Shown here: piece by piece, positions 39,641-59,446 of the stretch
Numbering within the stretch: the stretch's first letter is position 1
Layout of the letters: every line of letters starts with the position of its first letter
Assembly: GCF_029893325.1 (NCBI RefSeq)
Contig: NZ_JARXWL010000016.1
Coordinates: 1-64,000, forward strand
DNA from: Enterococcus sp. PF1-24
GTDB taxonomy: Bacteria > Bacillota > Bacilli > Lactobacillales > Enterococcaceae
DNA length: 64,000 bases
Direction of reading: 5' to 3'
Program-made: the position numbers and the translations under genes
The notes under the pieces: generated by a model
What the model saw: only the letters and a program-made list of their open reading frames with translations
Databases searched by the model: none
Told to the model about the DNA's origin: nothing

Positions 39641-39654
39641 TAAACTAAATTATT

Positions 39655-39692: not shown

Positions 39693-39700
39693 TTTTTGCA

Positions 39701-39726: not shown

Positions 39727-40875
39727 TTAAAAATTTAGGTGTTTTACGAGCTTTTCAACGGTCTTTTCTTTGGTTTCTTTACTAAGATGACCGTATGTGT
39801 CCATAGTCATACTTATTGAAGCATGGCGTAAACGTTCTTGTACTTCTTTCATGGTTGCTCCAGCATCTAACAATAAGCTTGCGTGAGTATGCCTGGTAAC
39901 ATGAACGCCTAGAAATGGTAGATTGGTTTTTTCAGCCATAGTTTTTATACGAATATAGATTGCGTGGTGGGTAACCAACTCTTTGTATATTCCACAAAAT
40001 ATCATTGTTGGGTCTGTAATACCAACCGATAGCATATATTTTCTTTGATTGATTTGCCAATGCTTTAAAATGGCCAGAGTTTTATCATCTAGCGTTACTG
40101 TGTCTTTGCTGCTATCTGTTTTTGGTTCAGAAATCTCATAACCATTTTTTGTTTGAGTTAAAGTCTTATCAAACAAGACAAGATTATTATCGAAATCAAT
40201 GTCTGACCAACTCAAAGCTAAAGCTTCACTAACACGACAACCACTGTAGAACAAGAACCTTAGCAAAGTTTTATTAAAATCATTCTTATAGCTAGGGAAT
40301 TTTGCGTTAACATAATCAATTAACGTTTTTACTTCTTCTTTGCTGTAAACTTTGATTACCTTTTTAGAAATAATGGTTTTATTTCTGTTAGGCATCATGA
40401 TATGAGCTAATGGGTTGTATTGAATTAAGCCTAAGTTAATAGCATACTCAAAAATCCTTTTAGCTGTAGAATGCAGCACTTTGTATTGGTCAGTTTCTTT
40501 TGCCCAGGTATTAACGATTTGTTGAGCACGTTGTACAGTTACTTCTTTAATTCGTAAATCACCATAGACCGGTAAAATCCACTTAGTAAATTTTATTTCT
40601 GTTTTGATAAGCGTTACTTCTTTGACGGTAGTCTTGTAAATTTCTAACCATAATTCATAAACTTGTTGAAAGGTGTCTTTAGTTTCTTTCTTAAGACCCT
40701 CATTCTCAAAGCCCACTTGCAAACGTGATAATGCTAGTTGGGCTTCTTTTTTTGTTTGGAAACCTCGACGGGTTGTCCGAATTTCTTTACCGTTTATTGG
40801 GTTAGTGCCAAGGTATGCCTTAAATTGCCATGCCTTAGTACCGTCTTTCTTTTCGTATTGCTTGAATGTTGCCAT
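39727..40875 (-). CDS. int: Tyrosine recombinase integrase of the satellite
   Basis: This 382-residue phage-type integrase has an N-terminal arm-binding domain (KDGTKAWQFKAYLGTNPINGKEIRTTRRGF), a SAM-like core-binding domain, and a catalytic domain with Arg in SGCRVSEALALSW, HVTRH, an invariant second His/Arg region (LRHAS) and Tyr in MDTYGHLS. The ATG at 40875 with GGGAGGAAAA is chosen over a frame reaching 41040. It would integrate and, with an excisionase, excise the island at yrzB. Confidence 0.95.
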   Translation of the reverse strand: MATFKQYEKKDGTKAWQFKAYLGTNPINGKEIRTTRRGFQTKKEAQLALSRLQVGFENEGLKKETKDTFQQVYELWLEIYKTTVKEVTLIKTEIKFTKWILPVYGDLRIKEVTVQRAQQIVNTWAKETDQYKVLHSTAKRIFEYAINLGLIQYNPLAHIMMPNRNKTIISKKVIKVYSKEEVKTLIDYVNAKFPSYKNDFNKTLLRFLFYSGCRVSEALALSWSDIDFDNNLVLFDKTLTQTKNGYEISEPKTDSSKDTVTLDDKTLAILKHWQINQRKYMLSVGITDPTMIFCGIYKELVTHHAIYIRIKTMAEKTNLPFLGVHVTRHTHASLLLDAGATMKEVQERLRHASISMTMDTYGHLSKETKEKTVEKLVKHLNF

Positions 40876-40887
40876 GTTGATTTTCCT

Positions 40888-40921
40888 CCCAGTACCTAAC
40901 GTGGGGCGTTTATGTAGTGGG
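40888..40921. repeat. 34-bp direct repeat, copy 1 (5' of int)
   Basis: CCCAGTACCTAACGTGGGGC... recurs with one mismatch at 41691-41724 upstream of the Fic gene. It is an imperfect palindrome (CCCAGTACCTAA against CCCCACTACATAA), suggesting a regulator or recombinase site. Copy 1 directly abuts the int ribosome site. Confidence 0.8.
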
Positions 40922-40960
40922 TTCCTTAGATAGCTAAGGTAAGCGTATGTAAGGGGAATA

Positions 40961-41629
40961 TTAGTAGTTAATGCCAAAAATACAATTTGTATATAGGAAT
41001 TGCTTAATTTTCGTCTTGTCTGCTGTTTCATAGAAATCAATCATTAATTTATTAAAACGGCGAAGATGTTTCTCATCTATAATCATCACACCAACCCCGC
41101 CACCAATTAAGATTTTATTAGCACAAATGGAAGCTGTCCGTTTGTTACCGTCCCAAAATAATTGACTTCTACAAGCGAATAGGAAATAATCTAGTGCTTT
41201 TTCTGTCATGCTAACATCGCTTTGTAGTATGTTTTTGATTTGTTGCGATGATTCTTTCTCATTAGGGATAATCGGCTGATAGAAAGACCCTCCAATGCCT
41301 ACATCGCCATTTCTAAGCGTATTCAACATTGTAGGGGGTAATTCACCATACGCCACCATTGCATGAACTTGCTTCGCATAATCAAGCGTTAATGGCTCGT
41401 TGATGTTCGCTAAAGTGTACTGCCAAGCGTTGCGTAAGTTAAGCACCTTTTGCACATCATCAGCCTTTAGACCTGATATGCTCATGCCATCAATGATTGT
41501 CTTAGTATCGGGGAAAGTGATATTGATATTTTCCATCTTGGCTTGACTATAAATGTTTTCTACTAGTGTCTTCTTAGCTAAAAACAAGTTTTCTTCTTGC
41601 GTTAGATTGTATTTGTCTGTGTATGGCAT
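40961..41629 (-). CDS. Fic-fold protein with degenerate catalytic motif
   Basis: This 222-residue protein shows a Fic core: flap GGSFYQP (about 113-119) and an active-site loop QLFWDGNKR (156-164). In active Fic/Doc enzymes this loop starts with a His that acts as base (HxFxDGNKR); here Gln replaces it. The Asp-Gly-Asn-Lys-Arg anion-binding nest is intact, so it may still bind nucleotide. The ATG at 41629 follows AAAGGAGG. It lies between integrase and repressor, a spot often used for exclusion or defence genes; that role is inferred. Confidence 0.82.
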   Translation of the reverse strand: MPYTDKYNLTQEENLFLAKKTLVENIYSQAKMENINITFPDTKTIIDGMSISGLKADDVQKVLNLRNAWQYTLANINEPLTLDYAKQVHAMVAYGELPPTMLNTLRNGDVGIGGSFYQPIIPNEKESSQQIKNILQSDVSMTEKALDYFLFACRSQLFWDGNKRTASICANKILIGGGVGVMIIDEKHLRRFNKLMIDFYETADKTKIKQFLYTNCIFGINY

Positions 41630-41690
41630 TGTGTACCTCCTTTCAATTTGTAAATCATTCAAAATATACATATCTCTAAATAATGCTTCA

Positions 41691-41724
41691 CCCAGTACCT
41701 AACGTGGGGAGTTTATGTAGTGGG
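41691..41724. repeat. 34-bp direct repeat, copy 2 (5' of the Fic gene)
   Basis: It is identical to 40888-40921 except one base in the centre (A for C) and lies 62 bp upstream of the Fic start codon. Confidence 0.8.
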
Positions 41725-41750
41725 GAAAAAATTAATAATACTTAGTTTGT

Positions 41751-42521
41751 TTATTCATTGGCTGGTGTATCAGATAACTGAGCTTTTTTTACCATCTTTC
41801 CATATTCAAGAAAAAGCTGTTTATGTTTATCGTCTAAATCATTATAGAGAAATAACAGTTCGCTATGTTCAGGTTTGATTTTAGCGATTGTTTGATAATA
41901 TTCATACGCTAATGGTTTGAATAGTAATGATTTAAGACGGTTATTCTCGGGTGCATAATCAATAACGAATTGATGTGATAAAACATTTATGATTTTTTCT
42001 AATTGTTCGGGAGTAGGAACTGCTAAGCCCTCACACATCGCTTTCAATGCGTTAACCTCAAAGCCTAGCATTCGAGATATTTCTTCAAATGAAAGTTGTT
42101 TATTATCTCCTAGTTTTCCTAGTTTCATTTTTTCATCTAAAACAGCTTTGAATTGATGAGAAAAAGACCGACCTTTAATTTTTTGAGCGTTTTGTCGCTG
42201 GTAATAGATGTCGTGTACATCTTTTATAATATCATCATTATTTTTCTCAACAATATCAGACATAGAGTGAACATTAGCGTCTTTTATTAAGTCTTCTAAA
42301 ACGGCTCGTTCTAGCTCTTCGTTTGTTTTGTAATCGTCGATTTCCATGAGATAGGATAAAGTAACCCCGAAATGTTTTGATAGCTCACGAGCGTTGCGAA
42401 TAGTTATTTTTGAGCGGTCATGTTCATAATTACTTAGTGTTGATTTTGGTATTTTTGTAAGGTCGCTTAGTCGTTGTAAGGAAAGACCACTTTCTAATCT
42501 CAATTCTTTTACTCTATTCAT
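41751..42521 (-). CDS. CI-like HTH repressor of the satellite
   Basis: This 256-residue protein has an N-terminal XRE helix-turn-helix (about 1-62, with LSLQRLSDLTKIPKSTLSNYEHDRSK) and a second HTH-like segment (about 150-195, LSFEEISRMLGFEVNALKAMCEG). No LexA-type autoprotease Ser/Lys pair is obvious, so induction may depend on an antirepressor. The ATG at 42521 with GAAAGGAG is preferred. It is divergent from the early genes and probably binds the three operators between them. Confidence 0.88.
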   Translation of the reverse strand: MNRVKELRLESGLSLQRLSDLTKIPKSTLSNYEHDRSKITIRNARELSKHFGVTLSYLMEIDDYKTNEELERAVLEDLIKDANVHSMSDIVEKNNDDIIKDVHDIYYQRQNAQKIKGRSFSHQFKAVLDEKMKLGKLGDNKQLSFEEISRMLGFEVNALKAMCEGLAVPTPEQLEKIINVLSHQFVIDYAPENNRLKSLLFKPLAYEYYQTIAKIKPEHSELLFLYNDLDDKHKQLFLEYGKMVKKAQLSDTPANE

Positions 42522-42544
42522 TATATATTCTCCTTTCAAGAATA

Positions 42545-42627
42545 AGTATAGCATGATGTGTTAAAAAAAGACACAAAAACTTGACAGTGTTAAAAAGTAA
42601 TACTATAATCGTGTTAAATGTTAATAC
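42545..42627. promoter_or_regulatory. Genetic switch: divergent promoters and three 17-bp operators
   Basis: Three related 17-mers of form GTGTTAAA...NAC start at 42558, 42587 and 42611. The rightward promoter is perfect, TTGACA (42581-42586) and TATAAT (42604-42609), and its 17-bp spacer is exactly operator 2. The leftward promoter has an extended -10 TGCTATACT (box at 42545-42550), and operator 1 covers its -35 region. Confidence 0.85.
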
Positions 42628-42644
42628 GGAAAGGAGAGATAGAA

Positions 42645-42833
42645 ATGATGATTACAGAGAATCAAGCCCAAGCGTTAAGAGTAAAACGAGCTAGATTAAA
42701 TTTTACAAAAAAAGAAATTAGCAAAATAATGAAAATTTCAACAAAAACATATTCTCGCTTGGAAGTTGGTAATTGGAATGCAAATCGAGATATTTATGAA
42801 AAAATGTCTAATTGGCTTGCTGAAGACTATTAA
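42645..42833 (+). CDS. Small Cro-like HTH protein
   Basis: This 62-residue XRE-type protein (ALRVKRARLNFTKKEISKIMKISTKTYSRLEVG) is the first rightward gene after the switch. Two consecutive ATGs follow AAGGAGAG; 42645 is used. By position it is a Cro-like or Str-like regulator. Confidence 0.85.
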   Translation: MMITENQAQALRVKRARLNFTKKEISKIMKISTKTYSRLEVGNWNANRDIYEKMSNWLAEDY

Positions 42834-42849
42834 GAAAGGGGTGTAGCAA

Positions 42850-43557
42850 ATGCAAAATCTAGTATTAGCACAGGAAGAATTATTTCAAGGCATTCATTGC
42901 GATGTGTGGGTTGATAAAAATCGAAATCCGTTTATGACAATCCAACAATTAGCAAATGCTTTGGAGTACAAAAGTAGAAACGGCATCGAAAAAATGCTAA
43001 AAAGAAATCCTTATTTAAGAAATAAAGAATTTTCAACTACCGCCAAATTGTCTGTAGTTGAGGGTAAGAGATTTGTAGAACGAGAAACCATTGTTTTTAC
43101 GAAAGACGGAATCATGGAAGTTGGCTTTTTATCACCAAAACCAAAAGCACGGGAATTTAGAGCTTGGGCAAGAAGTGTATTAAATGCTTTTATAGATGGT
43201 CAAATTGTTTGGAAAGGTCATCGCGAACAACTAAAGAATACGAATAAAACATTAAGCGAAGCAATTAAAGAAGCTGGTTATACCAAACCGTATCATCATT
43301 CAAATTTTTATAATCTTATCTATCAAACTGCCATCGGTTTTACTGCGGTTTCGTTAAGAAAAGCCAGAAATGCTAAACCAAAAGCGGTAGCGACTGATTT
43401 TATGACGACCGAAGAACTTAAAGCTTGTGAAGAACGAGAAAAAGAAGTCATTACTTTATTAGGATTGGGATTTAATCGCGATGAGATGAAAGAAATTTTT
43501 GAAAGAAAAGGTGTATTGTATCAAACAACTCTTAAATTGCCAGAAATGGCTCGATAG
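42850..43557 (+). CDS. BRO-family antirepressor-like protein
   Basis: This 235-residue protein has an N-terminal Bro-N domain (CDVWVDKNRNPFMTIQQLANALEY, then FVERETIVFTKDGIMEVGFLSPKPKAREFRAWARSVL, about 18-120) and a helical C-terminus. BRO proteins bind DNA and in phages often act as antirepressors. The start follows AAAGGGGTG, 16 bp after the Cro-like gene. It may relieve the CI-like repressor. Confidence 0.88.
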   Translation: MQNLVLAQEELFQGIHCDVWVDKNRNPFMTIQQLANALEYKSRNGIEKMLKRNPYLRNKEFSTTAKLSVVEGKRFVERETIVFTKDGIMEVGFLSPKPKAREFRAWARSVLNAFIDGQIVWKGHREQLKNTNKTLSEAIKEAGYTKPYHHSNFYNLIYQTAIGFTAVSLRKARNAKPKAVATDFMTTEELKACEEREKEVITLLGLGFNRDEMKEIFERKGVLYQTTLKLPEMAR

Positions 43558-43569
43558 GACGGTGAGAAC

Positions 43570-43869
43570 ATGGCAAAACTAAGCATTGATGAATTAGACC
43601 TATCGCCTGCATTGCGTGAGGTTATAAAAGAAACAGCCGCACAAGAAGGAAGACAGCAAGCAATAACTTTTATTGAAGAATACAAGAAGAAGCTAGAACA
43701 GCCTGCAGTGATGAATTATACGCAAGCTGCTAAGTATCTGGGTACAAGTTACAACACCTTGACAAAAAAGCTCATGAAAAAAGGTTTAATCAAGGTCATT
43801 TTAATTGATGGCTATGAGCGAATTAGCAAAGCTGAAGCAGATAGATTTTTAAAAGAGAATGCAAAATAA
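43570..43869 (+). CDS. Excisionase-like helix-turn-helix protein
   Basis: This 99-residue protein has a MerR/Xis-like winged helix in its C-terminal half (MNYTQAAKYLGTSYNTLTKKLMKKGLIKVILIDGYERISKAEADRFL). It is a candidate recombination directionality factor or an accessory DNA-binding protein. A GGTGAG site precedes the ATG. Confidence 0.75.
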   Translation: MAKLSIDELDLSPALREVIKETAAQEGRQQAITFIEEYKKKLEQPAVMNYTQAAKYLGTSYNTLTKKLMKKGLIKVILIDGYERISKAEADRFLKENAK

Positions 43870-43970
43870 TTCCTAGCGTGGGGCAGGATATTCCAGTAAT
43901 GGAGCACATAACAGCAAAGTCGCTAAAGTCAATTGTCAGTCGCATAAAGTCTAATTTGGAGGTATTAATC

Positions 43971-44144
43971 ATGCAACGTTTAAAACAGTACAGGGGCTTA
44001 CTCATCGCATTTACGAGCGGTTTAGTATTATCGAATCATCTATCATTAGGATTTAAGGTTAGCTTAGTGGTGCCTGTAGCATTGGTGCTATTAATGGATT
44101 TTGATAGCAAGAAGTTTGAGTCAAAAATTTTAGGAGGACGCTAA
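43971..44144 (+). CDS. Small two-helix membrane protein
   Basis: This 57-residue protein has hydrophobic segments GLLIAFTSGLVLS and VSLVVPVALVLLM and charged ends. The ATG at 43971 follows TTGGAGG, better than the longer frame from 43878. A partial copy of the 34-bp repeat motif (CCTAGCGTGGGGC, 43872) lies upstream. Function unknown. Confidence 0.65.
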   Translation: MQRLKQYRGLLIAFTSGLVLSNHLSLGFKVSLVVPVALVLLMDFDSKKFESKILGGR

Positions 44145-44145
44145 A

Positions 44146-44346
44146 ATGAACAAGGAAATTATACTAGCTATTGGCAATATAGAAGATGTTTTAACTGCTA
44201 TTTGTAGTTTAGAAGACGGCAAGATGTATCGGTGCAAAATTGATGGTGTAGATGGCATTGAAACAGCGTTAGAGCGTGCTAAAACATTAGCGGAGTATTT
44301 ACTGGAAAATACATTAGGAACGCTAGAACAAGCTTTAAAGGAGTAA
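44146..44346 (+). CDS. Hypothetical satellite protein, 66 residues
   Basis: The ATG follows TTAGGAGGA and lies one base after the previous stop, so it is cotranscribed. The sequence is acidic and helical (IETALERAKTLAEYLLENTLGTLEQALKE). Not recognised. Confidence 0.7.
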   Translation: MNKEIILAIGNIEDVLTAICSLEDGKMYRCKIDGVDGIETALERAKTLAEYLLENTLGTLEQALKE

Positions 44347-44351
44347 TTTCG

Positions 44352-44432
44352 ATGAATGAGAGCAAAGAAAAAGCCTTAACGATTCCACCGACCAAAGCGA
44401 ACGTTAAAGGCACACAAAAAGGCTTGAAATAG
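44352..44432 (+). CDS. Possible 26-residue small ORF within a hairpin
   Basis: ATG at 44352 follows AAAGGAG with an 8-base gap and encodes MNESKEKALTIPPTKANVKG plus six residues. The same DNA forms an inverted repeat (GCCTTAACG with CGTTAAAGGC), so it may instead be a structured leader or terminator. Confidence 0.35.
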   Translation: MNESKEKALTIPPTKANVKGTQKGLK

Positions 44433-44517
44433 CCATTTCTTTGTTCTCATTATAACACAAAAAATTGATGATTGAAAACTGAATATAATGCATGCAGTTT
44501 ATTTTTTAGAAAAAGTG

Positions 44518-44562
44518 TTGACCTATGTTGCTACATGAGTTATTATTTATGTAGCAACATAG
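44518..44562 (+). promoter_or_regulatory. Promoter with 14-bp perfect inverted-repeat operator
   Basis: TTGACC (44518-44523) and TATTAT (44541-44546) are 17 bp apart. CTATGTTGCTACAT (44523-44536) and ATGTAGCAACATAG (44549-44562) flank the -10 box. This fits an autorepressor site for the ribbon-helix-helix protein that follows. Confidence 0.75.
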
Positions 44563-44578
44563 AAAGAGGTGAATAACT

Positions 44579-44764
44579 TTGATTGCTAAAAAAGAACGTT
44601 TAGCTGATAAGCCAAAAGATTATATGTTACGAGTAAGGATTGACGATGAGTTGTTAACAAAGCTTGACATCATCGTAGCCAGAAACGACAGTAGTCGCTC
44701 TCATGTAGTACGTGAAGGGATTGAAAGGATTTATCAAGAATTAGACAAAAAAGAAACTCTATAA
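44579..44764 (+). CDS. Ribbon-helix-helix (CopG-like) regulator
   Basis: This 61-residue protein has the pattern YMLRVRIDDELLTKLDIIVARNDSSRSHVVREGIERI, a classic beta strand plus two helices. It starts with TTG at 44579 after AAAGAGGTGA. Preceded by a perfect inverted-repeat operator, it probably represses itself. No toxin partner is seen beside it. Confidence 0.82.
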   Translation: MIAKKERLADKPKDYMLRVRIDDELLTKLDIIVARNDSSRSHVVREGIERIYQELDKKETL

Positions 44765-44807
44765 TTGTTCTCCCCGTCGAAAGTTTGAACAACTATAGAG
44801 CCACCAC

Positions 44808-44853
44808 CGTATAAACGGCATGTAAATATAATACCACTGCATGCCGTTATACG
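44808..44853. promoter_or_regulatory. Long inverted repeat downstream of the RHH gene
   Basis: CGTATAAACGGCATG (44808-44822) pairs with CATGCCGTTATACG (44840-44853), one bulge. There is no T-run, so it may be a protein site or processing hairpin. A further hairpin AGGGTA...TACCCT lies at 44886-44904, before the next gene. Confidence 0.55.
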
Positions 44854-44931
44854 TCAATTCAGCTTATTTGCTGTAACTAAGTATAAGGGTATTTTTTGTA
44901 CCCTAAAATCGAATGAAATGGGGATTTAATT

Positions 44932-45240
44932 ATGAATAACAAATCAGTTAAAAATATAGATGAAGCTATAGAACAAGTAGGCGATGTAGCAAAAGATTTG
45001 TACGTTGTAAAAGAGTTGATGAAAGTTTTGAGCGATAAAATAGTTGCGATTCAAACATTAGTATTGCGATACGAAAAAAGCCAACAAGAAGCGAAGGGGT
45101 TGCTTTTGTATCAAACGATACGAGATGTAAAACCAATGGGCGTTTTAAGCCAAGAGTGCATAATTAAACTAGAAAATAGTTATGAACAGCTTAGTGAACA
45201 GCACAAAATCTTAATCGTGGAGGTAAATAGCCATGAATAA
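44932..45240 (+). CDS. Hypothetical helical satellite protein, 102 residues
   Basis: Predicted coiled and helical throughout (DEAIEQVGDVAKDLYVVKELMKVLSDKIVAIQTLVLRYEKSQQEA). ATGGGGA precedes the ATG. It overlaps the next small gene by 8 bases. Not recognised; similar proteins sit upstream of replication genes in phages. Confidence 0.7.
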   Translation: MNNKSVKNIDEAIEQVGDVAKDLYVVKELMKVLSDKIVAIQTLVLRYEKSQQEAKGLLLYQTIRDVKPMGVLSQECIIKLENSYEQLSEQHKILIVEVNSHE

Positions 45241-45409
45241 ACTAAAAATAGGCGATGTTTGCCGAGTGAAGCAATCAAAATTTATCAGTGCAGGTTCTTT
45301 TGTTGAAATCCTGCAGGAGCTACAAACTGGCATTTTTCTATGTTTGGATAATCAAGGCTATACGGTTGTTGTTGAAAGAAATCTTGAGAAAATGGACGGT
45401 GAAAAATAA
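45233..45409 (+). CDS. Hypothetical satellite protein, 58 residues
   Basis: ATG at 45233 follows TGGAGG and the frame runs to TAA at 45407-45409. The product starts MNKLKIGDVCRVKQSKFISA and looks like a small beta-barrel. It overlaps its neighbours on both sides (8 bases and 1 base), which supports translation. Confidence 0.72.
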   Translation: MNKLKIGDVCRVKQSKFISAGSFVEILQELQTGIFLCLDNQGYTVVVERNLEKMDGEK

Positions 45410-45702
45410 TGAACGATTTAAAAACAAACGAAACTAACTTATTTGAAAATACTAAGCATTTTGTAAAACAAGCGAACAACTCACTATTGGAAAGAGAACA
45501 GCTTCTTGATTCTTTAGAAATTGCCATTGATAAGTTTGAGGACATTTATTTCGATGATGACCAAACACGAAGAGAATTTGCTAAAGCTAAGAACTTACTA
45601 ACGGTGCTTTTCTACTCATACAAGGATTTGTATGCGATAGATGAGGATTTGGTTAGGAGTTTTGAAAGTTGTAATCTGTTTGGCAAGAAATGCGATGTTT
45701 AA
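45409..45702 (+). CDS. Hypothetical satellite protein, 97 residues
   Basis: It starts in TAATG with the preceding gene. Acidic and helical (NSLLEREQLLDSLEIAIDKFEDIYFDDDQTRREFAKAKNLL). Not recognised; part of the operon leading to the replication genes. Confidence 0.68.
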   Translation: MNDLKTNETNLFENTKHFVKQANNSLLEREQLLDSLEIAIDKFEDIYFDDDQTRREFAKAKNLLTVLFYSYKDLYAIDEDLVRSFESCNLFGKKCDV

Positions 45703-45766
45703 TTGGTTGATTCTTAACTAATCCAATTGTTACGATGAATAAAAATTTAATTACGGGGTGTTGAAG

Positions 45767-46612
45767 ATGAGCTTTAAGAATAATACAAAAGCTAAAAGGT
45801 ATTTTTGGTTGAAATTGAAAACAGATTTTTTTGACCAAAAAGAAATCAAATTATTAAGGCGTATTGCTGGCGGGGATACCTATACTATTATCTATTTAAA
45901 AATGTTATTAAGAAGTCTTAAAAACGATGGAAAATTATTTTATGAAGCGATGGGAGATAATTTTGCTGAAGAAATTGCTTTAGATATTAATGAGAATCCA
46001 GAAGATGTATCATTGACGATTAGTTATCTCGAATCTAAAGGGTTACTTGAGCTAATAGAAAATGATGAATATTTTCTTAACAAAGTACCAGAAATGGTGG
46101 GTTCTGAAAGCTATAGTGCTGAACGAGTTAGGGATTATCGAGCAAAGAAAAAGTTACAAAGTAACACAAAGGCGTTACATGGTAACAGCGATGTAATCTC
46201 ATGTAACGAAGAGATAGAGTTAGAGTTAGAGATAGATATAGAGTTAGAGAAAGAGATAGATAATAAACCGTCAAAAAAAGTTTTGACAGAACGTTTTGAA
46301 AACCTTTGGAAAGAATACCCAAATAAACAAGGTAAAGCAAAAGCATTTACTGCTTATCAAAAAGCAATTAAAGACGGTGTAACCGATGAAGAAATCTCCA
46401 AAGGCATAAAAGCTTATAAAAAAGAGTTAGCCCTTAAACAGACAGAACAGAAGTTTATAGCGCATGGTTCTACTTGGTTTAATCAAAGACGTTGGGAAGA
46501 TGAGCACGAATCTGAGCCAATCCGAATTGAACAAGATTATAGTTTACCCGAAGAATATCAAAATACTTTAGACGATTTACCAGAGATTGACGAATCACAA
46601 ATAATTTATTAA
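45767..46612 (+). CDS. Phage-type replisome organizer protein
   Basis: This 281-residue protein has the N-terminal replisome-organizer domain (KRYFWLKLKTDFFDQKEIKLLRRIAGGDTYTIIYLKMLL, winged helix, about 10-120), a low-complexity acidic linker (EEIELELEIDIELEKEIDN), and a C-terminal region common in phage Rep proteins (FENLWKEYPNKQGKAKAFTAYQKAIKDGV). It should bind the island origin and recruit the DnaC-like loader. The ATG at 45767 is preferred over GTG at 45758. Confidence 0.88.
   Translation: MSFKNNTKAKRYFWLKLKTDFFDQKEIKLLRRIAGGDTYTIIYLKMLLRSLKNDGKLFYEAMGDNFAEEIALDINENPEDVSLTISYLESKGLLELIENDEYFLNKVPEMVGSESYSAERVRDYRAKKKLQSNTKALHGNSDVISCNEEIELELEIDIELEKEIDNKPSKKVLTERFENLWKEYPNKQGKAKAFTAYQKAIKDGVTDEEISKGIKAYKKELALKQTEQKFIAHGSTWFNQRRWEDEHESEPIRIEQDYSLPEEYQNTLDDLPEIDESQIIY
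46153..46256. repeat. Repeat-rich segment inside the replisome organizer gene (candidate origin)
   Basis: Five GTTAC/GTAAC words lie in 55 bp (46153, 46161, 46174, 46182, 46203). They are followed by about 50 bp of degenerate hexamers (GAGTTA/GAGATA). Lactococcal and related phages often carry the origin inside this gene. Confidence 0.5.
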
Positions 46613-46627
46613 GGAGGTTGCCTAATT

Positions 46628-47458
46628 ATGAATCTATTAGACGGATTGCCAAAGGAAGTAGCAAACAGCCTTATTGAAAAATCTCATGGAATACTTGAAA
46701 CTGATGAATTTTGCGAGTTGCACCCGAGATATAAAAAGATGTTACGTCCGGACGGTGAAACAGTTTGCCCTGTTTGCTACAGGGAAAGACGAGATAAGAT
46801 TGTTGCTAATGAGAAGTCAAAAGAATACTACACTAATACGGTGGACGGAAAACGGCAATATTTGTATGAAGAAAGCATTGTATCCAACAAACTAATCTTT
46901 GACAAAGGCTTGAAAGAGTTTGAAGAAAGGTCAGATTTAGAAAAAGGGCTTAAAGAAAAATCCAAACGACTAATTCAGCCTTTAGCAAGCCTTGAACCAG
47001 TTACCGTTTATTTGCAAGGAAATGCCGGCACAGGTAAAAGCCATTTAGCCATGGCGATGTTGAAGAATGCTAATCAGCTCTCTAAAGGCAATCGCTGCTT
47101 GTTTGTTAACTTCCCTACTTTGCAACAAAGAATTAGAGCTAGCTATGATAACAAGTATGCGGAAGATTCGGAATCAGTTTATATAAACAAAATGGTTGGG
47201 GCTAGCATATTAGTATTAGACGACATCGCAAACGAAGTAAACCCTAGTAACCTACAAGGCAGGGTATCCGACTTTTCAGCAAGAATCTTGTATGCGGTAA
47301 TGGAAGCTAGAGCAGAATCTAAGCCAACGATTATAACGAGTAACATCGCATGGGAAGAATTGCAAAAGCTGCTTGACCCAAGAGTTGTTTCAAGAATGAG
47401 CCATCGCTTAACGCTGATTAGTTTTGATAAGGTGTCAGATAAGCGAAAAGGTAAATAA
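46628..47458 (+). CDS. DnaC/DnaI-like helicase loader ATPase
   Basis: This 276-residue AAA+ protein has a Cys pair region near the N-terminus (CELHP, CPVCYRERR, about 28-60), Walker A QGNAGTGKSHLA (about 134-145) and Walker B SILVLDDIANE (about 193-203). It should load the host replicative helicase at the origin marked by the previous gene. AAGGAGG precedes the start. Confidence 0.9.
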   Translation: MNLLDGLPKEVANSLIEKSHGILETDEFCELHPRYKKMLRPDGETVCPVCYRERRDKIVANEKSKEYYTNTVDGKRQYLYEESIVSNKLIFDKGLKEFEERSDLEKGLKEKSKRLIQPLASLEPVTVYLQGNAGTGKSHLAMAMLKNANQLSKGNRCLFVNFPTLQQRIRASYDNKYAEDSESVYINKMVGASILVLDDIANEVNPSNLQGRVSDFSARILYAVMEARAESKPTIITSNIAWEELQKLLDPRVVSRMSHRLTLISFDKVSDKRKGK

Positions 47459-48219
47459 TTTTAGAGCAAATATATTTAATAGCGATTCTAGGCTAACAGT
47501 AAGCGTTCAGAACGTATGTTCTTTCGTTTGTGATAAAATATATACACGAAAGCTAAAAAGGCTACAGTGACAAATTAGGGCGGTTAAATGCAATCAGGGT
47601 TTAAGAAGCAAGCTAAACAATGAAAGTAAAACTATTTAAAACAGGTCGTTCAGAACGATATGTTTTTAGAAAATGAATATCCGCTGAATCGTAGAACGAA
47701 TAGGAGCCGTTAAAAATGACGAGTCTTAAAAATTTAACCGAGAGCAAAATTGCGCTGAGCTCAAAAGTTAACGCCCACAAAGATGTGGTGGTTAAGCACG
47801 TATTGCAAAAATGCTGAGAAATGCTAAGGTTAGCACGCATTATAGAATTGTTGACATTAAAAAGTTAACCCGTGTTAACCTTATGCTTTTATAGCTAAAA
47901 ATGTAACTGTTAATAGCAGGGCAGAAGCAGGTTCGTAGATTAAGAAATCAAAAATCCTCGTTGTCACCTGCAGGTGTTAACGATAAAAAGCAAGTAATTG
48001 ACGGTGTGATTCTTCTCTTACACAAACATCGCTTTTCAACTTTTTTGTAAAAGAGAAACTGGAAAGGTTTTGGAAAGGTATTTAAACCTGTAGAAATGAG
48101 ATTATGACTAGGTAAACAATAGATAAGGTTTTGATAAGGTGATTTAGTTAAACCGCCACAGTTTTGTGGACGTTAATTATTTGTGGGTATATAAGAAATT
48201 TGAAAAGGTGGTGAAAAAA
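47459..48219. other. 760-bp noncoding region rich in repeats (regulatory or origin region)
   Basis: No convincing gene is present. It holds GAACGTATGTTC (47510-47521, SOS-box-like), a duplicated CGTTCAGAACG block (47504 and 47643), three to four about 33-bp hairpin units (47706-47840), two GTTAAC palindromes near 47870-47890, a hairpin at 48010-48060 and four 11-bp iterons (48061-48143). It is probably a control or replication region of the island. Confidence 0.6.
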
Positions 48220-48540
48220 ATGATTGAATTAACAATTATTGAACAATCGGTATTGGAATTATTACCAAAAGGAATTGAACGTAAAACTAAAACATCAGAA
48301 ATTAGTAAGTTAGTTGATTTATCTCAACGAGAAGTTTTTGCGGTGATTCAAAGCCTTAGAAGTAAAGGTATCCCCGTTTTAGCTTCACGAGGTGTAAATA
48401 GTGGTTTATACATCGCAATTAGCCAAGATGAGCTTAGCAATGGTTTACGAGCGTTCAAGAGCCAACAACAAAGCATGAGTGAAACAATCGGATACTTGGA
48501 AAATGCGGACGTTGAACATTGGCATGAACACATAGCTTAA
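48220..48540 (+). CDS. Winged-helix satellite protein
   Basis: This 106-residue protein has a winged-helix-like domain (TIIEQSVLELLPKGIERKTKTSEISKLVDLSQREVFAVIQSLRSKGIPVLASR). The ATG at 48220 follows AAAGGTGG and is preferred over 48166. It lies just after the 11-bp iterons and may bind them. Confidence 0.75.
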   Translation: MIELTIIEQSVLELLPKGIERKTKTSEISKLVDLSQREVFAVIQSLRSKGIPVLASRGVNSGLYIAISQDELSNGLRAFKSQQQSMSETIGYLENADVEHWHEHIA

Positions 48541-48679
48541 AAATGGTGGAAAAAGGTGGATTCTTTTGCTAGTGAGTGCCTGACTATAGCGCCACAAACG
48601 AAAAGAAATATTTTTTTAGGGTAATTATACCCGAATGAATTAAAATGCCTTATACGGGCTTACAGAGAGGAAAAAACAA

Positions 48680-48997
48680 ATGAATAATTTAGAACTAGAT
48701 AACATGAAAAATCGAATCACTGAGAATTTACAGAAAGCTTTTGACAATGGACTTGAAGAAAATAAATTGTTGATTGCGGAAGCTTCGGCAGATTTAGAAG
48801 AATTACAAGAAAAAGTTTATGGTACATCGCCGGCTACTGTTGCAAGTTTAATCAAAGATTTATACGAACTGGCTTCTGCTACAAATATTACCAGTAAAGA
48901 AACTGGCAACTCTATTACGGTTGATGATTTTCAAGAAATGATTTATTTAAAGGTTGAGTTATTGGCAGAAATGTTAGGGATTGACTTAGAAAATTAG
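48680..48997 (+). CDS. Hypothetical satellite protein, 105 residues
   Basis: Acidic and helical (NRITENLQKAFDNGLEENKLLIAEASADLEELQEKVYG). AGAGAGGA precedes the ATG. A hairpin AGGGTA...TACCC (48618-48632) followed by GAATGAA lies upstream, like the one before the gene at 44932. A weak terminator hairpin follows at 49010-49047. Not recognised. Confidence 0.68.
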   Translation: MNNLELDNMKNRITENLQKAFDNGLEENKLLIAEASADLEELQEKVYGTSPATVASLIKDLYELASATNITSKETGNSITVDDFQEMIYLKVELLAEMLGIDLEN

Positions 48998-49350
48998 AAC
49001 TTTATGCGATGATGAAGCTGAGGGGATACTTCCTTTCGGCTTTTTTGTGAGTAAAAATACGATATAACTTATTTAGAGATTTTAGAGGTCTTAAAAAAGT
49101 GGAAGAAGCAGTTAACGCCAAAATTGGTGAGTCCTAAAAATTACGAGGTAGCTTAGTGAGGTTTTGGGGAGGTAAAAAGCTTGTTGGTGATTTTGAATGT
49201 AATAAACGAACCCCTAGTTAGTTAATTATGGGCTTTTAAATATTCTAGTTACAAGTTGGCTAAAATAAAAAAGGCACCTTCTAAAAGGTACCTTAAGCCG
49301 AGTAATCGCCTAACTATAGTTATCCGCCAAATAATTATAGCATACTAGGA
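48998..49350. other. 350-bp noncoding stretch in the island
   Basis: It holds a weak terminator near 49010-49047, one 33-bp-type hairpin unit around GCCAAAATTGGTGAGTCC (from 49116), and an imperfect hairpin AAGGCACC/GGTACCTT near 49270-49295. No open frame is supported. Confidence 0.55.
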
Positions 49351-49740
49351 GTGATTATTATAACTTCATGTAAGAATTGCAATATTAAGAATCTAAAAAA
49401 GATATTGAGTGTATACCGTAGCTTAGCGCGTATGACTGGTAGATTTTATAGCTTAGAAGAATTAATCATCGCAGAAACTGGGAATGCTGTAACGACCGAA
49501 CAAATCAATGATAACCAAAAAGAAGTGAATCAAGAATGCGATGCGATTATAAAAGCGTGGCAAGCCATAGAAAGCGAGATAGATAGAGCAGTATTATTTT
49601 ATTCGTACTTCGATAAAGAAAGCCATAGCGTAAAAGAAATAACATTTATGTTAAATTGCTCTCGGCGGACTATTGAACGATACAAGCAACGAGCAGTTAT
49701 TGAGTTTGGCAAGTTTTATGAAAATGGCGCTTTATCATAA
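49351..49740 (+). CDS. ArpU/RinA-like late transcription regulator
   Basis: This protein of about 125-129 residues ends in a sigma-region-4-like HTH (SHSVKEITFMLNCSRRTIERYKQRAVIEFGKFY). ArpU- and RinA-type proteins activate phage late operons. The start is uncertain: AGGAG overlaps the GTG at 49351, and an ATT at 49354 or 49357 would be spaced better. It could act on the promoter before the TerS-like gene. Confidence 0.72.
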   Translation: MIIITSCKNCNIKNLKKILSVYRSLARMTGRFYSLEELIIAETGNAVTTEQINDNQKEVNQECDAIIKAWQAIESEIDRAVLFYSYFDKESHSVKEITFMLNCSRRTIERYKQRAVIEFGKFYENGALS

Positions 49741-49755
49741 CGGTAGTTTTGATAA

Positions 49756-49785
49756 CAAAAAAAGGAGCATGATAGCCATACTCCT
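49756..49785 (-). terminator. Terminator of the HicB-like gene
   Basis: AGGAG(C)ATG pairs with CAT(A)CTCCT, and seven T follow on the minus strand. Confidence 0.6.
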
Positions 49786-50236
49786 AAATAGAATCTATCC
49801 TTTTTTCAGCAATAGCTTCAGTCAGCGTTTTAGAGAAATTAAGGTGCATTTCTTTCCCTAATGAATCAGCCCATTTGGGAATTGTTAAAGTTTTCTTGAT
49901 TGGTTCCTGACTACCTAGATATTGTGACACATCAACGCTAACCATTGAAATAAACGACTTTTCTGGGTCGAAAACTAGTTCATCATCATCATCTTTAAAT
50001 GGATTATTTTCTATTAAGGATAACGATGAAATCAACGAAGGTTTAGGGATAGGCTTATTAGATTCAATCAAACCAGAAATAACCAAACCTAACCAATCGG
50101 AAGCCATTGCCATAGCGTCATTAAGGTTTTCTCCTTGAGTTGCAGAATGCTCAAAATCAGGAAAATGAATGATAAAAGGAATTTCCTTATCTTCGATATC
50201 TTGATAATAGAATAATGCTGGATACGTCACTAGCAT
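49784..50236 (-). CDS. HicB-like protein without a HicA partner
   Basis: This 150-residue protein has an N-terminal HicB/UPF0150 domain (YPALFYYQDIEDKEIPFIIHFPDFEHSATQGENLNDAMAMASDWLGLVI) and a C-terminal segment that could be a ribbon-helix-helix (KKTLTIPKWADSLGKEMHLNFSKTLTEAI). GAAAGGAC precedes the ATG. No HicA-sized frame adjoins it, so it probably works as a solitary regulator. Confidence 0.82.
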   Translation of the reverse strand: MLVTYPALFYYQDIEDKEIPFIIHFPDFEHSATQGENLNDAMAMASDWLGLVISGLIESNKPIPKPSLISSLSLIENNPFKDDDDELVFDPEKSFISMVSVDVSQYLGSQEPIKKTLTIPKWADSLGKEMHLNFSKTLTEAIAEKRIDSI

Positions 50237-50352
50237 AATAAATCAGTCCTTTCCACTATTTAGTTAAATTAAACATTTTTATATTGTACACGTGCGATAC
50301 GTATTAGTCAATAGTTTTTCCGAAGTATTTTACTTAAAAAGAATGTATGATG

Positions 50353-50497
50353 TTAGCAATGGTTAGCAAAATTGAACCCTAGTAAAACCTAGTATAATTT
50401 GTGTGTGCGATGCCCGTAATTATTTACTTACAACAGCCTAGCAAAACCTAGCTTAAATCCAATAACCGAAGTACATCGCTTATCATTCTAAACCTAG
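50353..50497. promoter_or_regulatory. CCTAG repeat cluster and putative late promoter
   Basis: CCTAG occurs at 50378, 50388, 50437, 50447 and 50493, in pairs spaced 10 bp within AACCTAGYAAAA contexts. TTGAAC (50372-50377) and TATAAT (50393-50398) bracket the first pair with a 15-bp spacer. GTTAGCAA is repeated at 50353 and 50363. A regulator such as the ArpU-like protein may bind here. Confidence 0.5.
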
Positions 50498-50502
50498 TAA
50501 TC

Positions 50503-50769
50503 ATGCTTAAATGCTACGATAAGAGGGTGCAAAAGGTTGCACACAAAATTGAAAAGGTTGCACACAAAAAAAAGTTGCAACCAGTTACAGATAATGATGA
50601 GCTGACAGAGAAGCAAAAGCTGTTCTGTCTGTACTTCCTAGACGGTTTCAACGCAACTAAGGCTTACAAGAGAGCTTACCAATGCGATTACAACACGGCT
50701 AAGTCAGAGGGGAGCAGGAACCTTGCGAAACCCAACATAAAAAAAGAAATACATAGGCTAATTAAATAG
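50503..50769 (+). CDS. Short small-terminase-like protein (TerS N-terminal part only)
   Basis: This 88-residue protein has the start of a Terminase_2-type small subunit (LTEKQKLFCLYFLDGFNATKAYKRAYQCDYNTAKSEGSRNLAKPNIKKEI), the DNA-binding HTH, but lacks the oligomerisation part; full TerS is usually well over 130 residues. No good ribosome site precedes the ATG. A 21-bp tandem repeat encodes KVAHKIE-KVAHKKK. In satellites TerS redirects helper packaging; this stub may be degenerate or an interfering form. Confidence 0.65.
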   Translation: MLKCYDKRVQKVAHKIEKVAHKKKLQPVTDNDELTEKQKLFCLYFLDGFNATKAYKRAYQCDYNTAKSEGSRNLAKPNIKKEIHRLIK

Positions 50770-50888
50770 TTAGTGATTAAGCGGACTATGGTAAATCCTT
50801 GTATTTGATGTTTGGAAATGTTCGGAAATTTGAAGTTGCTAATCATTGGTTAAAAAAATTATGGTAACAAATGCTAGCATAATAGGAG

Positions 50889-51024
50889 AGAGCAAAATTG
50901 CGCAGTCTTACTTTAACTAGAGCCAAAAATGGCTTGAGTGAATATTTTAGCTAAACACAAAAATGTGATGAGTGAATAATTTGACGAATCCAAAATAGGC
51001 TCGGTTGAGTATTCAAAAACTCGG
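50889..51024. repeat. Array of about 33-bp degenerate hairpin units
   Basis: Units begin near 50890, 50920, 50955 and 50987 with cores GAGCAAAATTGCGC, GAGCCAAAAATGGCTTGAG, ACACAAAAATGTGATGAG and ATCCAAAATAGGCTCGG. Each has short complementary arms around an A-rich loop, then GAGTGAATA-like bases. The same core is seen at 47742 and 49116. Confidence 0.65.
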
Positions 51025-51072
51025 AAAAAGATTGGGTGTGAAAAAATTAACGCTCTGCTAGCAAAATATAAC

Positions 51073-51252
51073 CTATACTAATTCCTTTTTACGTTCAGCA
51101 ATTAATCCCTCTAATTCGGCGATGTCATCTAAGGTTGCTTGCTTTCTAATAAATGAGCGAGAAGTTGAACGATTACGCAAATATTTAGCGTGTTCTTTAT
51201 TCTTTTCTTGCCAACGTTTATTAGCTTCAGTTTGTCTATTTTTTTCGGTCAT
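51073..51252 (-). CDS. Hypothetical helical satellite protein, 59 residues
   Basis: Highly charged (MTEKNRQTEANKRWQEKNKE...LDDIAELEGLIAERKKELV), probably a helical DNA- or RNA-binding protein. GAGGTG lies 9 bases upstream of the ATG at 51252. Not recognised beyond being common in phage-type elements. Confidence 0.7.
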   Translation of the reverse strand: MTEKNRQTEANKRWQEKNKEHAKYLRNRSTSRSFIRKQATLDDIAELEGLIAERKKELV

Positions 51253-51254
51253 AC

Positions 51255-51283
51255 TTAACACCTCGATTTAATTATGCTATAAT
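51255..51283 (+). promoter_or_regulatory. Promoter of the antisense RNA
   Basis: TTAACA (51255-51260) and TATAAT (51278-51283, extended by TGC) are 17 bp apart and face right, with no gene downstream but a terminator 95 bp later. Confidence 0.75.
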
Positions 51284-51289
51284 ACAAGT

Positions 51290-51381
51290 GAAGCCAGAGC
51301 CGTTAAAGACGGTGGCAGGAATTAATTAGTTATGATAACCATCTTAAACCGGCCAAAGTTTATAAGATGGTTATTTTTTTG
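51290..51381 (+). ncRNA. Antisense RNA antitoxin (RatA-like) of a type I system
   Basis: A roughly 92-nt transcript is predicted from the promoter at 51255-51283 to a strong terminator (ATAACCATCTTA 51335-51346 with TAAGATGGTTAT 51363-51374, then seven T). It also contains GCCA-CCGT...ACGG-TGGC as a second hairpin. Its 3' end overlaps the end of the toxin frame on the other strand, so it would base-pair with the 3' part of the toxin mRNA. Confidence 0.75.
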
Positions 51382-51454
51382 TGTTATCGTCTTTGAGTGT
51401 TAAGACTAACATTGCAAAAGCAATCATTAAGCTTAACGTTTCAAAAACAGACAC
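51371..51454 (-). CDS. Type I toxin peptide, TxpA/Fst-like ('putative holin-like toxin')
   Basis: GTG at 51454 with AAAGGAG 8 bases upstream encodes 27 residues: V/MSVFETLSLMIAFAMLVLTL followed by KDDNTKK. The single hydrophobic helix and charged tail match the small membrane toxins annotated as putative holin-like toxins in Bacillota. The stop codon lies inside the terminator stem of the convergent RNA, as in txpA/ratA. It would depolarise the membrane if its mRNA outlived the antisense RNA. Confidence 0.85.
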   Translation of the reverse strand: MSVFETLSLMIAFAMLVLTLKDDNTKK

Positions 51455-51527
51455 ATTCGGCGCTCCTTTCTTTAGGATAATGACTTACTTTCATAAGCAC
51501 CACCTCACTTCTCTAGCTTACATATTC

Positions 51528-51556
51528 ATTATACTATAGATAGTATCGGCTTGCAA
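51528..51556 (-). promoter_or_regulatory. Promoter of the type I toxin
   Basis: TTGCAA (51551-51556) and TATAAT (51528-51533) on the minus strand are exactly 17 bp apart, with a leader of about 65 bases before the toxin start. Confidence 0.8.
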
Positions 51557-51584
51557 TAGTTTTTTTATAAAGGAGGTGGGAATT

Positions 51585-51836
51585 GTGAGAAAAAACCGAA
51601 GATTTGCTAAAGAGGATTTTCTAGCTATGATAGCCATTAGTACTTTATTAGTCATAATTATAACTTTTATGGAACATACTAATCCAGAAAGCTTCATGAC
51701 AAAACTTTTGAGAAATTCTGCTGAGTTCATTTTTGTTCCAGTGTTTATTGCCAATGCAATTATATATTTGGAAAAATACTATAAACTTACGAATCAATTT
51801 GAAGATGATACAAATGAAAATAACGCCCCACGTTAG
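51585..51836 (+). CDS. Small two-helix membrane protein at the right end of the island
   Basis: This 83-residue protein has membrane segments about 13-31 (FLAMIAISTLLVIIITFM) and 49-67 (FIFVPVFIANAIIYLEKYY). GTG at 51585 follows AAAGGAGG by 8 bases. The last codons and stop coincide with AACGCCCCACGTTAG (51822-51836), the inverted copy of the repeat core near int. Not recognised. Confidence 0.72.
   Translation: MRKNRRFAKEDFLAMIAISTLLVIIITFMEHTNPESFMTKLLRNSAEFIFVPVFIANAIIYLEKYYKLTNQFEDDTNENNAPR
51822..51836. repeat. Inverted copy of the 15-bp core of the 34-bp repeat
   Basis: AACGCCCCACGTTAG is the exact reverse complement of CTAACGTGGGGCGTT at 40896-40910 near the left end. It is a possible recombination-accessory (Xis-type) or regulator site. 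Confidence 0.7.
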
Positions 51837-51847
51837 ACGAGAATTTT

Positions 51848-51873
51848 TTGACCTCGATTTTGACTCCGGATGA
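51848..51873. other. Right arm-type integrase site
   Basis: TTGACCTCGATTTTGACTCC plus GGATGA matches the left pair at 39701-39726, in the same orientation. Confidence 0.6.
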
Positions 51874-51971
51874 TATTAATTTTATGAAATTCAATGAACT
51901 ATTATGTTGATATTTTATGGATAAAATACAAATTAGATGTGTTAATTGATACAGTGAAATCAATTCTTTAC

Positions 51972-51990
51972 TCATGTCAGAAGAAGAATA
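51972..51990. other. attR core of the phage satellite
   Basis: TCATGTCAGAAGAAGAATA is identical to attL, followed by the original yrzB stop (TAA) and its terminator. Confidence 0.92.
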
Positions 51991-57738: not shown

Positions 57739-57784
57739 GTAAATTCCTTCTTTCCAACGTGTTTGATTTTTCCTTTTTTAATAA

Positions 57785-57869
57785 TTGCTCAAATATTCAC
57801 AAATAAAACTGAAAATAAAATAGTTCATAGAACCACCTTAATGATAACGCTTTTTTGATGAAGTTGCAA
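57785..57869 (-). promoter_or_regulatory. Promoter of the ECF gene with cre-like and Rex-like sites
   Basis: On the minus strand TTGCAA (57864-57869) and TATCAT (57841-57846) are 17 bp apart. AAAAAGCGTTATCA (57842-57855) fits the cre consensus at 12 of 14. TTGTGAATATTTGAGCAA (57785-57802) in the leader has one perfect Rex half-site. The weaker sites could be chance in AT-rich DNA. Confidence 0.45.
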
Positions 57870-58082
57870 TCAGATTTAGGCTTTTAAACAGAAGAAATTT
57901 CAAGGGATTTGCTAGTTTTTTTATTGAATAAGACCAGACTTTTTCAAATAAGAAAAAAATAAAAAAATTTAGCAAAATAGGGTGACATTTTGGTGGGAAA
58001 CTTTCGTATATAGAGTGTAAGGTTTTTATTCAGTGAAAGGGTAAAAATCAGATTGATTGATGAATGAGAAGGAGGGAGAAGC

Positions 58083-58295
58083 ATGTCAGATAACTTAATT
58101 GTGGCGTTAGTCGGCTTAATTGGCACGGGTTTAGGGACTTTTGGTGGAATTTTTACATCAACGAAATTGATTGCTTACCGCATTGATTTGCTGGAGAAAA
58201 AAGTGGAAAAGCACAATCAAGTCATGGAGCGAACTTTTATTTTAGAAGAAAAAGTCAATCATTTACAAAAAACGCTAAGTGTTAGGAAAGGTTAG
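58083..58295 (+). CDS. Small phage-type membrane protein (XhlA-like) of a lysis cassette
   Basis: This 70-residue protein has an N-terminal transmembrane helix (about 6-28, VALVGLIGTGLGTFGGIF) and a C-terminal coiled coil (LLEKKVEKHNQVMERTFILEEKVNHLQKTL). AGGAGGGAG precedes the ATG. It stands just before a holin and an endolysin, as XhlA does in phages. Confidence 0.72.
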   Translation: MSDNLIVALVGLIGTGLGTFGGIFTSTKLIAYRIDLLEKKVEKHNQVMERTFILEEKVNHLQKTLSVRKG

Positions 58296-58305
58296 GTGAG
58301 GAATA

Positions 58306-58563
58306 ATGGAACAGATTTTAGTGGCAATACCAGTTATTAGCACCGTGGTACTAAGCGTTGCCCAGCTGCTAAAGCAAGTTGTAGTCAATCATAGGTGGCT
58401 GCCCCTTTGGAACGTTGTGTTGGGGATTTTATTAGGCATGCTCTTTGCTGGGACCATTTTACATGATGAATTGGCGATTTATGCTTGGGCAGGTGGAATT
58501 TCTGGTTTAGCAGCTGGCGGATTTTATGATTTAGGCAATAGTTTTGTTAGGAAAGGAGAATGA
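58306..58563 (+). CDS. Phage holin
   Basis: This 85-residue protein has two to three hydrophobic helices (ILVAIPVISTVVLSVAQLL, WNVVLGILLGMLFAGTIL, IYAWAGGISGLAAGG) and a charged tail, like phage holins that release endolysin. Its start lies 10 bp after the previous stop and it is followed within 5 bp by the endolysin. Confidence 0.78.
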   Translation: MEQILVAIPVISTVVLSVAQLLKQVVVNHRWLPLWNVVLGILLGMLFAGTILHDELAIYAWAGGISGLAAGGFYDLGNSFVRKGE

Positions 58564-58567
58564 GAGG

Positions 58568-59446
58568 ATGCAACATTTAATTGTTTATGGTCATGGCGCT
58601 CGAGATAGTGGTGCAGTTGGTTCAGGCACCAATGAACGAGATTGGACACGGAAAGTTTTAGATGTTGAAATGCAGAAATATAATCAGCACTTACAGAAGA
58701 ATCAGCTGCTTTTTTACGATAAAAAACGCAATATGTTTTTGGATACTTGTTCAGGTGGTGGGGCTTATCAAGTGGCCAAGGAAATAGTTTCGGTAACCGA
58801 AATTCATTTAGATGCAGCTGCCGGGCTGGCGACAGGTGGTCATGTGATTATTTCCAATCGTGTAACAGCTAACCAACAAGATTTGGCAATTGCTGAAGTC
58901 GTTAAAAAATATGCGGGTTGGTGGCAAAAAGTTCAGTCAACTGCTGGCATTAATCAAAGAGGAGATTTAGCTCATTGTCAAATTTTTGCTCAAAGAGGAA
59001 TTTCCTATCGCTTAGTGGAACTAGGCTTTATTTCTAATCCACAAGATATGCAACTTTTAACAAGTCAGGTTGCTTCATTAGCTAGCGATTTAATCACTGC
59101 TATTACTGGTGAGTCCTTAACTGAAGCAGTTAAGGCAGAAAATAAAACATTACAGGAGTTGATAAACATGGAATTTTGTTATGCCGCAAGAAATGCGATT
59201 CATTACTACAACGGAAGAGAAGTACATGTTTTAGGTGCGAATCATGAGTTTAAAGTAATCAAAGATATTTACAGCCAATATACTGAAGCCGCAACAGGTG
59301 AAAGAAAGGATATGTTGGTTTTTGATTGGTCGGACAATATGACCACAGTGGATGCTTTTGAACGAATGGTTCGTTATAATGCCGAAAAAGATATTTATGA
59401 GTTGAAAAACTTTCGCTATAATCGGGAAACGAAGAAGACGAGATAA
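58568..59446 (+). CDS. Endolysin, N-acetylmuramoyl-L-alanine amidase (Amidase_3-like)
   Basis: This 292-residue enzyme begins MQHLIVYGHGARDSGAVGSG and has an Amidase_3-type zinc site: His in YGHGARD (about 8), a second metal ligand near HLDAAAG, a later His, and Glu in VELGFISNPQDMQLL (about 155). The C-terminal 100 residues form a separate domain, probably for wall binding, ending HYYNGREVHVLGANHEFKVIKD. ATG at 58568 with GAGAGG is used. No phage structural genes adjoin it. Confidence 0.8.
   Translation: MQHLIVYGHGARDSGAVGSGTNERDWTRKVLDVEMQKYNQHLQKNQLLFYDKKRNMFLDTCSGGGAYQVAKEIVSVTEIHLDAAAGLATGGHVIISNRVTANQQDLAIAEVVKKYAGWWQKVQSTAGINQRGDLAHCQIFAQRGISYRLVELGFISNPQDMQLLTSQVASLASDLITAITGESLTEAVKAENKTLQELINMEFCYAARNAIHYYNGREVHVLGANHEFKVIKDIYSQYTEAATGERKDMLVFDWSDNMTTVDAFERMVRYNAEKDIYELKNFRYNRETKKTR

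Follow-up and report, generated by a model that had tools for sequence, protein, structure and literature searches.

An intact phage lysis cassette at a rearranged host locus of Enterococcus sp. PF1-24, with a Lys170-type binding domain in its endolysin

How does a complete set of phage lysis genes come to stand among the host genes of a bacterial chromosome, and is it put to use there? The question is raised by positions 1 to 64,000 of contig NZ_JARXWL010000016.1 of Enterococcus sp. PF1-24 (the 64,000-nt stretch of DNA analysed here, hereafter the window), where three intact open reading frames at 58083–59446, all on the plus strand and in phage order, form a lysis cassette. A preliminary description of this locus had offered two readings, a domesticated lysis module or the end of an eroded prophage. 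We consider it likely that a prophage once lay here, that deletion or rearrangement removed the rest of it, and that the cassette is its complete and undamaged lysis module. Every part of the cassette is of a known kind, and its features are as follows.

57739..58082, no strand: upstream intergenic region, where neither a convincing promoter nor a phage remnant was recognised
58083..58295, plus strand: small membrane protein, 70 aa, PHROG 1863 (E = 9.7e-11), hydrophobic N-terminal segment and then a charged C-terminal stretch
58306..58563, plus strand: Hol118-like holin, 85 aa, PHROG 1299 (E = 1.1e-15) and Pfam Phage_holin_5_1 (E = 3.6e-5)
58568..59446, plus strand: endolysin, 292 aa, Amidase_3 at residues 5–179 and a C-terminal binding domain
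59154..59158, plus strand: Shine–Dalgarno-like AGGAG (within cattacaggagttgataaac), preceding the internal ATG at 59168
59168..59446, plus strand: Lys170-type cell-wall-binding domain, from profile matches, with the in-frame ATG at 59168 as the probable start of a separate product

The family matches of all three genes are far beyond chance, and the intergenic gaps are only 10 nt (first ORF to holin) and 4 nt (holin to endolysin), so that the order and tight spacing given in the preliminary description stand. Its holin stands as well, the Phage_holin_5_1 match being above the Pfam cut-off. We have dropped the name XhlA-like that it gave to the first protein, because this 70-aa protein matches no Pfam family at E ≤ 1 and has its hydrophobic segment (residues 5–25) ahead of its charged stretch, the reverse of the order in XhlA; it belongs instead to PHROG 1863. 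The endolysin length of 292 aa counts from the ATG, and an alternative TTG start at 58544 would give 300 aa.

The endolysin is indeed a two-domain amidase. Its catalytic part matches Amidase_3 (E = 6.4e-16) and the endolysin family PHROG 489 (E = 5.7e-33), and H9, E23, H80, and E151, which we take to be the zinc-binding and catalytic places of Amidase_3 enzymes, are invariant in a four-protein alignment; a phmmer search with this part retrieved nothing from the solved structures at E ≤ 0.01. For the C-terminal 92 residues, Pfam gives no match that passes a family cut-off, and the PHROGs give none with E < 0.1; relatives of this domain were found at the C-termini of other lysins, one of these on contig C15 of the same genome. 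A profile of seven domain relatives, the window copy included, retrieves PDB 7d55 (E = 1.4e-11), presumably the Lys170 cell-binding domain, which the window domain used alone as a single sequence did not find. A separate profile test agrees, in that five relatives without the window copy recover the window endolysin at E = 1.7e-13, compared to 0.063 for the best-scoring of 1000 shuffles. A paper on the Lys170 cell-binding domain is among the references of PMC9430671.

The endolysin gene probably makes two proteins, by analogy with Lys170 and LysIME-EF1, because its second domain begins at an in-frame ATG behind a Shine–Dalgarno sequence. GGAG lies upstream of the initial Met in all eight domain copies read, which amount to six lysin types with little or no relation to one another, given that L030 and L031 are almost the same and one locus supplies two copies. 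By anti-SD pairing, ATG 59168 ranks third of 17 in-frame start codons, behind the endolysin's own start, which has a good ribosome binding site, and one TTG inside the domain. PMC7098653 describes the same internal start signals in LysIME-EF1 and its 36 homologues, and one full-length chain joined by three domain chains; a similar make-up, one full-length chain and three domain chains, is given for Lys170 in PMC9430671. Structure predictions made without an alignment had mean pLDDT values of 41.5 and 34.9.

The binding domain with an internal start was also seen at L032 (G112), L030 (G102), L031 (G109), L033 (G107), and L037, and by eye Lys170-type domains stand elsewhere behind GH25, PGRP-like, lysozyme-like, M23-like, and CHAP-like parts. 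A tblastn search with the domain retrieved nothing at E ≤ 0.1 from 50 697 phage records, yet this search missed MT836489, a carrier; among viral contigs, no relative of the endolysin was found. A model of the Lys170-type domain, joined here to an Amidase_3 catalytic part and with no convincing Pfam or PHROG match of its own, would better annotate enterococcal endolysins.

The cassette has an ECF transporter gene on the opposite strand as its left neighbour, and its wider surroundings hold HydCBA, an acetyltransferase-like gene, an 80-aa ORF, AraC, and FumAB-like genes. The preliminary description had stated that no phage genes flank the cassette, which is correct locally (we saw none other in 52–64 kb) and incorrect for the window as a whole, given a phage-type element at 39621–51990. 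It had also found no att repeat, and this agrees with the direct repeats of 57100–60600, which look like chance in the 20 of 31 families listed, with no att pair recognised. Neither an integrase nor structural genes nor an att pair were seen around the cassette itself; the integrase nearby is part of the element, which has its own end repeats. The sole promoter-like match upstream on the cassette strand is a weak one (9 of 12 positions, at 57796), from a scan whose 12 matches are hardly above the 8.6 in shuffles. Beside the cassette we saw no dedicated regulator or cargo gene of the kind that a holin-based secretion system would call for; the adjacent AraC goes with FumAB in relatives. A DNA search of 50 697 phage records with 57700–59800 found two records, with short matches in and just behind the first gene.

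To place the locus among relatives, we used HydA, which 23 of the 105 family genomes carry, PF1-24 included. In the 23 stretches around HydA from 21 of the 22 other genomes (G008 was left out, and two genomes appear twice), none of the three cassette genes was found at E ≤ 1e-4; the stretches vary in length, L150 reaching only 300 bases past ECF. The ECF gene was found in 21 of them (not in L137 or L148), and its right neighbour is, by eye, a flavodoxin-like gene in 12 of these 21 stretches (10 of 19 genomes), varying in the rest and unreadable in L150. FumA was found in three of 13 genomes searched (PF1-24, G001, and G064), and in both G001 and G064 the AraC, FumA, and FumB genes again stand together as a block, which is not on the contig that carries HydA. 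In G001, which represents the one other species of the genus in the comparison, ECF is adjoined by a flavodoxin-like gene, and the endolysin query found no match. Because the AraC–FumAB block lies elsewhere in both relatives examined and the cassette is absent beside HydA, we conclude that the cassette is at a rearrangement junction between two older host blocks, together with the acetyltransferase-like gene and the 80-aa ORF.

In a contig search, the best HydB matches were in Enterococcus sp. BWR-S5 (81%) and E. asini (77%). Two stretches, L139 (G060) and L140 (G073), have ∼4.7 kb of other genes between HydA and ECF; past ECF lie a phage-type integrase in G060 and a phage-lysin-like gene in G073. 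Insertions may be frequent in this neighbourhood. Matches to the endolysin query came from 14 of the 105 family genomes, again including PF1-24, and a related holin was found in the flanks of the match in three of the 13 others (G004, G087, and G093), where the genes upstream of the holin–lysin pair are, by eye, of phage tail or fibre type. No close orthologue of the cassette was found.

The phage-type element that lies to the left of the cassette has the following features.

39621..51990, no strand: satellite-like integrated element, 12.4 kb, with phage-type genes and 19-bp direct repeats, separate from the cassette
39621–39639, no strand: left 19-bp att-like direct repeat, at the 3′ end of a DUF1292-type gene
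39711–39722 and 51858–51869, no strand: second repeat, TTTTGACTCCGG, just inside both element ends
51972–51990, no strand: right 19-bp att-like direct repeat, at the right end of the element

Its genes encode an integrase, a Fic protein, an HTH repressor, an antirepressor, replication proteins, an ArpU-like activator, a HicB-like protein, and a PHROG 2277 protein, besides a truncated terminase small subunit of which residues 10–86 align to positions 65–141 of the 310 of PHROG 2606. Gene types and repeats like those of a phage-inducible chromosomal island are present, but the terminase gene is a fragment. The left and right border regions have nine 12-mers in common, compared to none in 21 of 23 control pieces, one in one, and five in one. 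In the 1.5 kb examined beside RuvX, three of 13 genomes (PF1-24, G065, and G091) have a related integrase. G065 carries an element of ∼10.4 kb flanked by 16-bp repeats, at the same end of the DUF1292-type gene, and the genes that follow the integrase in G065 and G091 include, by eye, nothing recognisable as a structural or lysis module of a phage, apart from a tape-measure-like ORF in G091. We rejected TTTTGACTCCGG as the att core, since the corresponding loci of the 12 other genomes examined lack it and the 19-bp repeat fits better; its copies are perhaps integrase arm sites. Shared control of cassette and element was likewise rejected: the upstream region of the cassette and the element share six 11-mers and one 12-mer, compared to means of 5.7 and 1.6 for 44 control stretches.

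Could the cassette be the right-hand end of the prophage to which this element belonged, split off by a later rearrangement? The cassette is on the same strand as the early genes of the element, the order integrase, replication, terminase, lysis fits a prophage, and most of a terminase gene has been lost from the element. We nevertheless regard this as very unlikely. The right end of the element, marked by the second copy of its 19-bp repeat, lies 6.1 kb to the left of the cassette, the intervening HydC, HydB, HydA, and ECF genes are an old host block, and the G065 element is likewise bounded by repeats at the same gene. Because the element has its own end repeats, it is a separate insertion and the cassette is not its end.

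Other phage-like and lysin loci of this genome (G000) provide further context. A phage-tail cluster on contig C15, at about 25676–46700 (L025:7676–13996 and L167:290–16700), encodes a tape measure, a tail protein with lysin activity, a fibre, a holin, an ArpU-type activator, a repressor, and a GH25-type lysin with the same Lys170-type binding domain; it adjoins rpoN-like and adcA-like genes, and no integrase, terminase, or portal was seen in it by eye. This cluster is possibly an F-type tailocin, against which speaks one of its proteins, whose PHROG match (phrog_14985, E = 1.2e-91) carries the label head and packaging. Relatives of its tail protein occur in 11 of 104 other family genomes searched, and in G102 a tail cluster stands between core genes, again with no recognised head genes. 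We regard the C15 cluster as a better lead than the orphan cassette. Portal PF04860 and TerL_ATPase PF03354 each have one match in the genome, both on contig C1, where a prophage at about 66–92 kb carries portal, large terminase, and tail genes and, by eye, apparently its own holin and amidase; it adjoins serine recombinase-like genes. A 465-aa amidase on contig C14, at about 52324–53721 (L024:12325–13722), is 45% identical to the cassette's catalytic domain; we rejected it as a second cassette on account of its signal-peptide-like start and its place among metabolic genes, and it is probably a host wall enzyme.

The host might itself keep the three genes in order to burst some cells, releasing DNA, proteins, or the tail-like particles of another contig. 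Such domestication, which would fit the intact genes with their conserved catalytic positions, the good ribosome binding site before the endolysin, and the tail cluster in the same genome, seems to us improbable, in that the cassette is not beside HydA in 21 other genomes, the endolysin search gave no match in G001, and the tail cluster comes with a holin and an endolysin of its own. There are known cases of holin systems turned to protein release (TcdE and type 10 secretion; PMC9527704), where, as in the window, a holin with or without an endolysin is found outside a working phage; those systems serve a cargo, whereas neither cargo nor regulator was seen beside the window cassette. With neither of these, no conservation, and a single weak promoter-like match, the domesticated module of the preliminary description thus lacks positive evidence. 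Alternatively, the three genes may have come alone by recombination of a lysis cassette, or the junction may be an assembly error. The assembly is a draft in 74 contigs, and no other phage remnant and no att pair were recognised around the cassette; yet the cassette lies inside a contig, and loss of a prophage needs no extra mechanism, so that we give this pair of alternatives very little weight. Least credible to us is a host-kept suicide or release device that is perhaps switched on by the element's ArpU-like activator or along with the tail cluster, such that a tail-like particle or satellite would use host-borne rather than helper-phage lysis genes.

We infer, rather, that the cassette is a relic of a lost prophage, because the module is complete, the phage is missing, the junction is rearranged, and the cassette is absent in relatives. 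The eroded prophage of the preliminary description is therefore the better supported of its two readings, through the phiEf11 and Javan59 gene order described below, the junction, and the absence beside HydA, although not as the end of the 39.6–52.0-kb element. Against a relic, none of the three genes is damaged, although a relic might well be, and no other fragment of the supposed prophage lies beside the cassette; the junction might also stem from an old rearrangement of the host in which a prophage had no part. In its present place the cassette is most likely silent or weakly transcribed, because no phage is there for it to serve and a late promoter was not found. If expressed, it would lyse the cell by ordinary holin–endolysin action. 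Judging from their families, the small membrane protein and the holin would gather in the cytoplasmic membrane, which the holin would open, and the endolysin would then reach the wall. By analogy with Lys170 and LysIME-EF1, the full-length amidase would be joined by extra copies of the binding domain from the internal start, and as an Amidase_3 enzyme it would cut the bond between N-acetylmuramic acid and L-alanine. The correct label matters, since an orphan lysis module should not be taken for a prophage or a secretion system; under host control, the cassette would be a compact lysis device.

Among the literature titles listed as matches, with most subscription journals outside their scope, there was no orphan enterococcal lysis cassette. 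Similar modules are known from phages. Over 70 residues, the 70-aa protein shares 47% identity with PHIEF11_0024 of Enterococcus phage phiEf11, and over 65 residues it shares 51% with a protein of Streptococcus phage Javan59. In phiEf11 the small protein of the same family precedes an annotated holin and endolysin, and in Javan59 it precedes a relative of the cassette holin and then a wall hydrolase, each tightly spaced on one strand, so that the window cassette shares this three-gene order. Yet those modules follow tail-type genes, whereas the window cassette follows host genes and does not stand behind tail or fibre genes, and their wall hydrolases are of other types (PF01183 in the phiEf11 annotation). 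In MT836489, a human-gut phage fragment, a first protein 56% identical to that of the cassette is followed by another small protein and then by an endolysin with the same kind of C-terminal domain. In the lactococcal prophage TP712, according to PMC6832245, holin and endolysin are likewise preceded by a small protein that has a single N-terminal membrane helix; this module differs from the window cassette in lying inside a prophage and in its GH25 endolysin with LysM domains. The window endolysin itself resembles Lys170 and LysIME-EF1 in its binding domain, related to PDB 7d55 and beginning with a Met behind a Shine–Dalgarno sequence, whereas its catalytic domain is Amidase_3 as compared to the CHAP domain of LysIME-EF1.
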